DNA from: Rubritalea profundi
Lineage (GTDB): Bacteria > Verrucomicrobiota > Verrucomicrobiia > Verrucomicrobiales > Akkermansiaceae
Direction of reading: 5' to 3'
Assembly (NCBI RefSeq): GCF_002954445.1
Contig: NZ_MQWA01000001.1
Span: forward strand, 1,076,308 to 1,111,458
DNA length: 35,151 nt
The position numbers and the translations under genes were made by a program. Of this stretch, positions 29,932-34,112 are shown piece by piece; position 1 is the stretch's first letter; the number at the start of each line of letters is the position of its first letter. Under the pieces are notes generated by a model. It did not search any database and was not told the DNA's origin. It saw nothing but the letters and a program-made list of their open reading frames with translations.

Positions 29932-31047
29932 TCACTCATCAGTACCGGCCGAAGAATTCTTACCGGGATCTAGCTCAAGCCAGTGTGTAGCGGATAGCTC
30001 CTTTAGCACCATAACTGGATCCTCTTCAGCTCCCTGCTGCCAATCGAGAGTCGCCTTCACCCGCAAAAAACCAGCAGTATCCAACAAGCCCATGACACTA
30101 GGTCTAACTTCATCCTTCTTGCTAGACTGTGCGTCAAATGCCGCGCCTAGTTGAGCAAACTGAGCGCTGTCCTTCGGTACGTTTACCTGTGGAGATTCTT
30201 GCAAACGCTCACCCACCTGCATCTTCGGCTTATAAAAAATGAGCTGCAGCTTAGTGCGCTCTCGGCCAGCACCAACATGCCGACGTCGCACATACAGCCT
30301 AAATTCTTTTGGATTCCCAATCGTTTGATCAGCTAAGAACTGACTCCACCCACTTTCAGCATAACGCACATGTTGCTCCCAATCTAACTTCCACACTGAG
30401 TCCTTTTTCCACATCACGACTTCAAACCTTCGCTGACTTTTGTCTACCAGCAAAAATTCAAGCCGAGGCATCTCCCCCTCATCACTGTAACTATTGGCAA
30501 GAAGCCTTACCGGCGGACGAGGAACGATAAAGTCGAGGTCGCCTTGCTTTTGTTCGATGCTCAGGATTTTACGAACTCCTCCTAGCACATATTCAGACTT
30601 CTCATTCGCACTAGCCACGACCATGTATCGGTCGAACAAGCGCAATGCCTCTCTCGACTCTCGAGCGAGAGTGTCTTGGTATTCTTTCTCTTGTTTAACA
30701 AATTCGCTTGGCTCACTAGAGATTGGCTTTTCAAGCTCTCGGTTGTAGAAAACGACTCCACCACCCACTACAAGCAAGGACATCCATAGAACTAACGCCC
30801 ACTTTCCTTGACGCTTGCGTTTCACTTTCTGCATCGAAACAAAATCTGCTACATCCTGGCCAGGAACACCATGTGACTCATCGGAGTCCACAACTTTTTC
30901 CATCTGCACAATTGAATTGAACTCCTGCGAACTAAAAGGGGACTGCCCGCAATGCGTGCACAATCCACCACTTATAAATGGTACTGGGGCTTTAAAAACC
31001 GAGTTACACTTACTGCAATGGTAAAGTTGGGAGTTTGGCTCACTCAT
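29932..31047 (-). CDS. Zinc-ribbon, single-pass membrane protein of unknown function
   Basis: 371 aa from the ATG at 31047 (a start seven codons earlier is possible). The N-terminal zinc ribbon has four cysteines, C11-x2-C14 and C30-x2-C33 (YHCSKCNSVF ... LCTHCGQSPF). A cytoplasmic linker, a membrane helix at about 83-100 (WALVLWMSLLVVGGGVVF) and an extracytoplasmic domain follow. That domain has WKLDWEQHVRYAESGWSQF (219-237) and EFRLYV (248-253), matching the protein at 19806-20825. Cytoplasmic zinc ribbon plus external domain suggests a sensing or assembly role, but nothing in the sequence defines it. Confidence 0.65.
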   Translation of the reverse strand: MSEPNSQLYHCSKCNSVFKAPVPFISGGLCTHCGQSPFSSQEFNSIVQMEKVVDSDESHGVPGQDVADFVSMQKVKRKRQGKWALVLWMSLLVVGGGVVFYNRELEKPISSEPSEFVKQEKEYQDTLARESREALRLFDRYMVVASANEKSEYVLGGVRKILSIEQKQGDLDFIVPRPPVRLLANSYSDEGEMPRLEFLLVDKSQRRFEVVMWKKDSVWKLDWEQHVRYAESGWSQFLADQTIGNPKEFRLYVRRRHVGAGRERTKLQLIFYKPKMQVGERLQESPQVNVPKDSAQFAQLGAAFDAQSSKKDEVRPSVMGLLDTAGFLRVKATLDWQQGAEEDPVMVLKELSATHWLELDPGKNSSAGTDE

Positions 31048-31104
31048 GGATAATCTAGATATATGCAAATAACCTGTTTCCGTTTACTTAGGAAACTCAA
31101 AAAT

Positions 31105-32861: not shown

Positions 32862-34112
32862 CTATCGGCGCTTGATGCTGCTAGGGTAATGCTCCCAGTG
32901 ATGAGGTTTGAGCCCCTGTTCCTCTTTCACATTCCTCGCCAAACGCATATAGCTCGCGATCATTGTTTCTTTAGTGCCCCCTCGGTGCATGTTAGATTTC
33001 AGTTCTTTGAGCTCACGCATACCTAGTGTGACCCACTCTAAACGAGTGAATGCCTTTAGCTTTTCATCCCACACACCAACGCCAAGCAATCGTCCTGAGT
33101 AGTCAGATTTATTCCACTGACTGTCTGCTGACATCGCCAACTCACCGCTGAACTTTAGAAACACCTGTGAGCCCTTCACCTTGCTAACTTCAACTTCAAG
33201 CTTCTGCTTTTGAATGTGCTCCTTCCACCAGGCCCCAAAACCTTCCATCGGCTGGCAATGCAACAACATCCTTTCTACTAAACTGTCCGCTAGATAGCAC
33301 CTCTCTCCCTTTTTATGTGTAGAAGGCAGCATGCTTTGCTGCTCGGATGGGCTCAGCCAGAATGCATCTAACTTCGCGTACTCTGGATGTCTTTGATCAA
33401 ACAACTCCATCTCGGGAAAAGCATAATGCCTAGCGGTGGTGCGCATCTTCAAAACACCAGCCTGAGCAAGCTCTTCAGCCTTCGCCATGCTCCTATCACT
33501 TTCCTTCATCACTCGACGCCCAATCCGCTCAGACTTCGGCATCTCCCTATATTTATCAACAGCCACGCGCAAATTACGTAAACTTCCCGCAGCGTCATAA
33601 GTCGGCCATCCCGTATCAATTTTACCTAAAAATCTGCCCGAGGGAGTCACGGCATAGACGCCTTGGTGAATATTATTTCCACCATCGCCCAAAGATGACT
33701 TCAAGAATTGATATTCCGCCTGCTGTTTTGCCTCTGAAGGAAGATTATTGTAGGCAACATCATCCGATGCCACACCTACGAAATTCTCTGAAAGATACGC
33801 TACAAACTTTGAATCATTGAAAAGCAACTGCCTCGTCTTGAATCCATTTTGTCAGCAATTGCCCAATGGCCCACCAAAATACAGCCATAGTAAGATCGGC
33901 TTGTCTTCAGTCATCGCGTCGACGACACCATCCAACACATTATCCTTCCAATCGACCTTAAAGTACTCGGGTTCAGCCGTATCTCCGATCACGTAATTGC
34001 GAATTTCTTTAAAATTTGAAAAGCTCAACTCCTCAGGGGCATTCTGAGCACTACTAGATAACATTGTCCCCAGCATAAATGTCATACTGCATGTCCATAA
34101 TTTCGTTTTCAT
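32862..34112 (-). pseudogene. Secreted thioredoxin-like protein interrupted by one in-frame TGA
   Basis: Two open frames on this strand, 34112-33852 (86 aa) and 33827-32862 (321 aa), lie in the same frame with a single TGA (33854-33852) between them; only eight further codons (QNGFKTRQ) join them. Read through, the protein is 416 aa: a signal peptide (to about SSSAQ, residue 23), a thioredoxin-like segment (FKVDWKDNVLDGVVDAM, EDKPILLWLYFGGPLGNC, then after the TGA LLFNDSKFVAYLSENFVGV), and a long C-terminal domain with FWLSPSEQQSMLP and a beta-rich end (RLLGVGVWDEKLKAFTRLEW). That C-terminal domain resembles one I associate with Planctomycetes and Verrucomicrobia secreted proteins. The stop follows Cys directly (GNC-stop). 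Nonsense mutation is the simplest reading; recoding is discussed under findings. Confidence 0.6.

Follow-up and report, generated by a model that had tools for sequence, protein, structure and literature searches.

Does the in-frame TGA that divides a thioredoxin-like gene of Rubritalea profundi mark a broken gene, or is it decoded as selenocysteine (Sec, U)? The gene lies on the minus strand at positions 32862-34112 of the window, i.e. the whole stretch of 35,151 nucleotides (nt) from contig NZ_MQWA01000001.1 that was analysed. Its two open frames, of 86 amino acids (33852-34112) and 321 amino acids (32862-33827), both on the minus strand, are halves of one reading frame separated by the TGA (33854-33852) and eight sense codons; a single in-frame TGA directly after a Cys codon (TGC) does join them, as an initial annotation of the sequence had said. 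That annotation had offered either a nonsense mutation or recoding as Sec in a Cys-Sec redox motif. The comparisons described here argue with high confidence for the latter: the gene is predicted to encode a full-length, probably exported selenoprotein with a redox role, in which a selenocysteine insertion sequence (SECIS) guides incorporation of Sec at UGA 33852-33854, at the site of the thioredoxin nucleophile. Translated with the TGA as a residue, the protein has 416 residues, a length like that of its homologues, with Sec as residue 87 and a TAG stop at 32862-32864.

The TGA is conserved among homologues of the gene. A search of 98 genomes (its own and 97 relatives) with the protein, its TGA read as Cys, gave 43 matches at E<=0.001 in 29 of the genomes; 42 of the 43 carry one in-frame TGA each, and the remaining match is a C-terminal piece of another matched frame (L044). 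The TGA falls at the identical residue in all 42 homologous frames, that of the window among them, and this extends to sequences 16-24% identical to the window's. Three motif types are found: N-C-U-Q-N-G, comprising the window protein and eight close homologues that are 34-52% identical to it; a type that is mainly G-C-[TV]-U-N-N-G; and C-G-E-T-U-N-N-G. One genome (G063) holds two odd motifs, LTCG-U-RT (L043) and VGVC-U-AS (L044), both from divergent Sec members on long branches.

The same codon recurs far outside these relatives. The DNA pattern G[HN]PxGxx-[TGA, TGC or TGT]-NNG, which requires those flanks, was run over the named genome collection and yielded at least 117 stretches, 80 of which were taken as loci containing 81 matches. 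The variable codon was TGA in 81 of 81 and TGC or TGT in none; 79 of these matches lie within frames that are long on both sides, and the other two touch the locus ends. According to record titles, the matches listed come from Planctomycetota, Verrucomicrobiota, Kiritimatiellia, Armatimonadota, Poribacteria, Hydrogenedentota, Latescibacterota, Chloroflexota, Actinomycetota and Neomarinimicrobiota; single phyla among these could be binning errors because the records are mostly environmental assemblies. Profile searches covered 387 genomes of the window's phylum set and a Planctomycetota set of 392 genomes (the phylum of the genome that contains locus L117), with at most four candidates scored per genome. 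About a quarter of the Planctomycetota set (97 of 392 genomes) has a strong match, E<=1e-20, and among the best matches TGA occupies the Sec site in 30 of 30 loci, some of them in genomes already among the pattern loci; the genome sets partly overlap (e.g. L071 with L025, L220 with L117). A further locus (L260, G697:C5:23100-25700) has TGA at the Sec site and a frame that breaks soon after, either a decaying copy or an assembly error.

The R. profundi genome encodes machinery for Sec: matches were obtained for selA (496 bits), selB (267.7 bits, over the cut-off), selD (L053, C1:4054761-4055690, 376.5 bits) and a tRNA-Sec (49.6 bits for a cut-off of 47) whose anticodon is TCA according to ARAGORN. 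The selD is a selenoprotein gene itself, with an in-frame TGA in CGGUASK. The conserved TGA together with selA, selB, selD and tRNA-Sec in the genome supports the recoding option.

Family and machinery also occur together. Among the 98 genomes selA is present in 46, namely in 28 of the 29 with the family versus 18 of the 69 others (Fisher 2e-11), and in the Planctomycetota set, where the selA threshold was E<=1e-60, it is present in 89 of the 97 strong-match genomes versus 153 of the 295 others (Fisher 8e-14), kinship being ignored in both tests. It is over the cut-off in 33 of the 35 genomes behind 36 pattern loci (our choice from the 80, two of which share one genome), and the selA exceptions G063, G479 and G493 have a tRNA-Sec over the cut-off. 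At four of the 80 loci (L064, L074, L122 and L142, from Rhodopirellula-type planctomycetes, L064 and L074 both being titled Rhodopirellula) the family gene adjoins selA and a fusion gene of the pyridine nucleotide-disulfide oxidoreductase/SelD type, with selB next in three of the four; an unbroken selB of 640 amino acids lies near the family gene in L142. Profiles named selA in L064 and L142, selB in L142 and the fusion gene in L064, L142 and L122, the rest being assigned by similarity; the fusion proteins tested pass the selD and N-terminal-domain cut-offs and fail that of the model 'fusion_not_SelD'. No function can be drawn from operons, because no neighbour cluster recurs in more than five of the 80 loci. 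In a genome that carries the family (G473), selA (L257, G473:C26:86400-88100) has one N-terminal in-frame TGA (LFPACVCVUEDLALS), which may reflect an error, decay or recoding.

The protein fold places the Sec at a redox site. An AlphaFold2 model built from 54 sequences has a mean predicted local distance difference test (pLDDT) score of 84.1 and a predicted template modelling (pTM) score of 0.83. Foldseek gave no match to the whole model at E<=0.001; a thioredoxin-fold domain, residues 46-192 (33537-33977), emerged in a later comparison with VIA-align, in which it superimposes on 3f9u with Z 14.1 and a root-mean-square deviation of 3.6 A over 133 residues, on DsbH (2ju5) with Z 11.1 and on DsbD-gamma (2fwe) with Z 8.9. 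Strand 73-78 is followed in the model by helix 88-96, and Sec 87 comes immediately before that helix, at the place of the nucleophilic (N-terminal) Cys of thioredoxins. In a profile alignment with 3ira, a weak match (E 0.079), the Sec column coincides with the first Cys of CHWC; in remote thioredoxins (L183-L210) it mostly coincides with the first Cys of WCxxC, and in some with the second. Sequence searches of the PDB gave weak matches only, among which rows of a viral fusion protein were taken as chance. The domain is followed by a C-terminal beta-rich domain, residues 205-391 (32940-33500), which was also modelled separately (pLDDT 84.3, pTM 0.83); a fold search with it gave a best Z of 6.6, which does not exceed background, and no clear relative.

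Around the Sec the family departs from the thioredoxin motif. Among 119 distinct members (near-identical proteins merged) the residues from Sec onward are UNNG in 108, UQNG in nine and other in two; position Sec+3 is Gly in 117 and never Cys, i.e. the CxxC/UxxC motif is absent. A possible partner Cys precedes the Sec in 115 of the 119, at -2 in 92, at -4 in 13 and at -1 in ten, and in the window protein it is Cys 86, whose TGC codon (33855-33857) is immediately 5' of the Sec codon. Elsewhere in alignment A4, which consists of the window protein and 53 of 64 distinct full-length pattern proteins, Cys reaches 30% of the 54 members in no column; alignment A5 has one fewer, and A2 holds 37 of the 42 frames. 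Model, fold comparison, alignments and partner-Cys counts thus bear out the proposal of the initial annotation that a Cys-Sec motif occupies a thioredoxin active site.

For a bacterial SECIS (bSECIS) hairpin the available portion of PMC13188914 gives a loop of 3-9 nt with a G within its first two positions, a distance of 16-37 nt from the UGA and a stem of 4-16 base pairs, with -7.5 kcal/mol or lower as a guide value for minimum free energy. The candidate core hairpin of the window at 33821-33834 (minus strand; stem GAGGC/GCUUU, loop AGUU) has its loop starting 22 nt after the UGA and G at the second loop position; it is enclosed by an extended stem-loop (33810-33846) in the minimum-energy fold of 33810-33852. 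The wider sample was 123 members reduced to 114 (one near a locus end dropped, and identical 60-nt segments after the UGA merged), and shuffle tests used 113 after removal of one sequence with an N. A hairpin that fits the rules is found in 109 of the 113, the window included, and the mean core energy is -5.5 kcal/mol, compared with -2.6 kcal/mol after synonymous shuffling, which leaves the protein unchanged. Singly, 34 of 113 sequences reach p<=0.05, compared with 6 of 114 at a control site 63 nt downstream and 3 of 113 at one 90 nt upstream, and eight of the nine close sequences are at p<0.05 (0.023 for the window).

The SECIS-like hairpins 3' of the TGA also covary. In the nine close homologues, placed in a common register, the stem is 93.3% paired versus 78.4% when shuffled, and three of its five pairs have changed on both sides; the window and L004 pair in a register shifted by one position. 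Of the UNNG sequences, 65 that share one loop type were selected; nt 17/29 are CG in 29 of them and GC in 25, and nt 16/30 are TA in 36 and CG in 17. In a third type all 24 of 24 sequences have a hairpin at +31 with UCUGGUCA at its centre, but they were selected for that motif and hence provide no test; in this subgroup (L020, L027, L030-L033, L036 and others) the hairpin seems to fix the V/I-W-S-D codons, and the Ser codon is TCA in all 24, partly by selection. The initial annotation's judgement that SECIS support is poor fails for the family, even though the hairpin of the window itself is weak. The hairpin that it drew (CAA-GA-C / GUUG) is not the conserved one; 33821-33834 sits where the hairpins of the close homologues covary.

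Most selenoprotein families have Cys members, which were sought here with the TGY-open pattern and with the profile searches. No full-length Cys member was found among the 81 pattern matches or among the profile matches listed, and a peptide scan of close relatives gave no confirmed relative. Weak matches of the phylum-set search that were aligned (L183-L210) are ordinary WCxxC thioredoxins and remote relatives only. Eight full-length homologues that lack Sec have Ser at the site in six (the second copy in L241, and L242, L243, L244, L246 and L247), Asp in one (the second copy in L248), a Pro-rich stretch in one (L245) and Cys in none; extra residues in the loop of L241-L243 make the precise position of their Ser alignment-dependent. 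These homologues also lack the partner Cys in the segments compared. In a quick tree of 79 proteins, rooted at its midpoint and with L245 on a long branch, the Sec-less forms lie among Sec forms and require four changes. Tandem copies of the family gene are seen as Sec with Ser (L241), Sec with Asp (L248) and Sec with Sec (L080).

One shorter sequence does have Cys: L259 (G503:C13:126300-127700) carries TGC at the aligned Sec site within a frame of 232 codons that lacks the C-terminal domain (44.9 bits), in a genome (G503) in which selA was not detected. It is possibly a Cys branch or an ancestor-like form, and it weighs against a strictly Sec-only family; in L261 and L262 the aligned site is not shown. 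Since L259 has Cys, and since the sequences examined cover a minority of the 22 weak-match genomes of the Planctomycetota set, Sec-only use is claimed here for the full-length members compared and no wider. With that limit we propose tentatively, giving it slightly less than an even chance, that Sec is obligatory in the two-domain form of this large multi-phylum family, i.e. that it is not exchanged for Cys, and that upon loss of Sec the redox pair goes altogether and leaves Ser, Asp or Pro at the site.

A mechanism may be outlined from these features. SelB and tRNA-Sec, guided by the downstream SECIS hairpin, would insert Sec at UGA 33852-33854. The thioredoxin-fold domain resembles the DsbD-gamma/DsbH type, and Sec 87 would stand there in place of the N-terminal nucleophilic Cys. 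The second Cys of CxxC is gone (UQNG here, UNNG in most members) and a partner Cys lies before the Sec, as C-U in this protein and in others as C-x-U or C-x-x-x-U. At their N-termini the nine close homologues show by eye a basic start and a hydrophobic stretch, weakest in the window protein, where a probable signal peptide covers about residues 1-23 (34044-34112); the protein is probably exported. An extracytoplasmic redox mechanism appears most likely, in which the selenolate would attack an oxidised substrate (a disulfide, peroxide or similar) outside the cytoplasm, the neighbouring Cys would resolve the product as a selenenylsulfide, and another thiol system would then reduce it. Binding of the substrate or a partner would fall to the C-terminal beta domain.

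The alternatives differ in what becomes of the UGA. The other option of the initial annotation, that an ordinary thioredoxin-like gene has recently acquired a nonsense mutation and its 3' part is still undecayed, would be in keeping with a selB that looks broken in the assembly and with the use of TGA as an ordinary stop in this lineage, where it ends several homologues. The conservation of the codon nevertheless refutes it: the same TGA is present in 42 of 42 homologous frames and 81 of 81 pattern matches and is followed by covarying SECIS hairpins, and Trp or Arg is at the site in none of the homologues compared; TGA in homologues together with sel genes is the very finding that the annotation had named as refuting a simple nonsense mutation. 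Nothing specific favours readthrough of the UGA with an ordinary amino acid, Trp or Cys, although near-cognate readthrough at this codon is a familiar phenomenon. Readthrough of that kind is very improbable here in view of a distribution that closely matches selA and tRNA-Sec, the SECIS-like structure, the absence of a Cys codon from all 81 pattern matches though it is one base away, and the classical Sec codon in the genome's own selD. Least credible of all is that two proteins are made, an 86-residue peptide and a downstream protein re-initiated at TTG 33827: both frames are indeed open, but the split would fall inside the thioredoxin fold of the model, between strand 73-78 and the following helices, and the codons that follow the TGA show conservation at the protein level (U-Q-N-G-x-K-x-R-Q in nine of nine close sequences).

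Several observations weigh against Sec at this UGA, and one of them suggests a further alternative. The selB match (L258) appears split across two frames, C1:1020800-1021867 (the GTPase part) and C1:1022509-1022691 (the C-terminal part), which is either an assembly error or real decay, and if the decay is real this strain could not decode UGA. The family would then be functional in relatives, with Sec decoding recently lost in this strain. Such a loss is unlikely: the genome retains selA, a selD with its Sec codon and tRNA-Sec, and the frame is undamaged on either side of the TGA; in environmental assemblies, moreover, a lone change of frame commonly reflects misassembly. To the same side of the balance belong the window's own hairpin, with a core of -2.8 kcal/mol alone, and its folds of -6.9 kcal/mol over 43 nt (33810-33852; z -0.58) and -10.2 over 55 nt, neither of which beats dinucleotide shuffles; the 79 of 113 members that singly miss p 0.05, including a close homologue (L005) with no advantage over synonymous shuffles (p 0.29); the four of 119 members that lack a partner Cys; and the eight of 97 strong-match genomes of the Planctomycetota set in which selA was not detected. 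Among the matches listed for these eight, G587, G664 and G784 show only a Sec-less form and the sole match of G572 begins beyond the Sec region, which leaves four (G654, G704, G752 and G768) with TGA forms and no selA detected.

Is the family a known one? It is very likely an uncatalogued selenoprotein family, to judge from profile and literature comparisons. No member was over the cut-off in NCBIfam (June 2026) among sets of 10, 54 and 37 scanned, the last two judged by E-values, and none was over the gathering score in Pfam among sets of 1, 10 and 54, the last again judged by E-values. The available text of a 2026 catalogue of 119 families (PMC13188914) contains no thioredoxin-fold family with U-N-N-G, and its general labels UxxG and CU are used there for other families. 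No description of the family was found by literature searches or in the available portions of PMC12013277, PMC9312934, PMC2398784, PMC4807772 and PMC1794560, where a listing in supplementary tables is possible.

Its nearest known counterparts are distinct. The VPGUxxT models (NF041382, NF041383) likewise describe thioredoxin-like proteins with Sec and are the NCBIfam models with most weak matches; however, the best score, that of L043, is 23.3 bits (E 4.3e-5, a value that recurs as the best of the 37-member scan) compared with cut-offs of 275 and 350, the 54-member scan gave E-values of 0.0013 or weaker, the models have 287 and 349 positions versus 416 residues here, and the family motif is GxPxxxxUNNG, the VPGUxxT motif not being found. 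The member nearest to a VPGUxxT model is the divergent L043. Thioredoxin_7 (PF13899), Thioredox_DsbH (PF03190) and the DsbD C-terminal and DsbH folds share the thioredoxin fold, with a best score to Thioredoxin_7 of 23.8 bits (E 5.1e-5) for a gathering score of 27 and a best E of 5.6e-4 in the 54-member scan; unlike these, the family has UxNG in place of CxxC, a partner Cys upstream and an extra C-terminal domain. The Trx7/PDZ selenoprotein (NF041199) also combines a Thioredoxin_7-type domain with Sec, but it has a CxxU motif and, by its name, a PDZ domain, and matches here are 12.7-13.9 bits for a cut-off of 300. In TsoC (NF045708, NEPxGxxU), as tabulated in PMC13188914, the PxGxxU spacing resembles GHPxGxxU here; that model gave no match in 37 members at E<=10 or in 54 at E<=0.01, under filters that drop most very weak matches. 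The lack of Cys forms is rare but not unique, because GrdA was a selenoprotein family without known Cys homologues in 2006 (PMC1794560); compared by description only, and from partial texts, it differs in its CxxU motif and its role in glycine reduction (PMC13188914).

How such a family could have been passed over may lie in the way selenoproteins are found. According to the portions available of PMC12013277 and PMC13188914, bacterial selenoproteins are usually discovered by aligning a UGA to the Cys of a homologue, and PMC12013277 discards a candidate unless a Sec homologue of it is already known or its top ten hits include two or more Cys homologues, so that a family of this kind would tend to be dropped. 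A family without full-length Cys forms would in general tend to escape discovery by Cys/UGA pairs, and annotations would probably show its genes as truncated or split. If Sec is indeed obligatory in the two-domain form, the family would be near-invisible to such methods, which would explain its uncatalogued status despite its presence in 97 of 392 genomes, and it would offer a natural test of what Sec does that Cys cannot. With records from about ten phyla and hardly any use of Cys, the family also lends itself to a direct test by exchange of Sec for Cys. Because selA coincides with it in 89 of 97 strong-match genomes, the family may help to keep the Sec trait in Planctomycetota and Verrucomicrobiota.

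As for its setting, the gene has a divergent lipoyl-transferase-type gene (PF21948) upstream and a convergent YkuD L,D-transpeptidase-type gene downstream, and it has no match in PHROGs or Rfam. By protein search it is single-copy in its own genome (G000, 4.17 Mb in 4 contigs), which holds one further, weak profile match of 23.5 bits at C1:3961937. Elsewhere in the window, a frame of 378 amino acids at 29932-31068 on the minus strand, which has no Pfam match, starts by eye like a zinc ribbon (CSKC...CTHCG).
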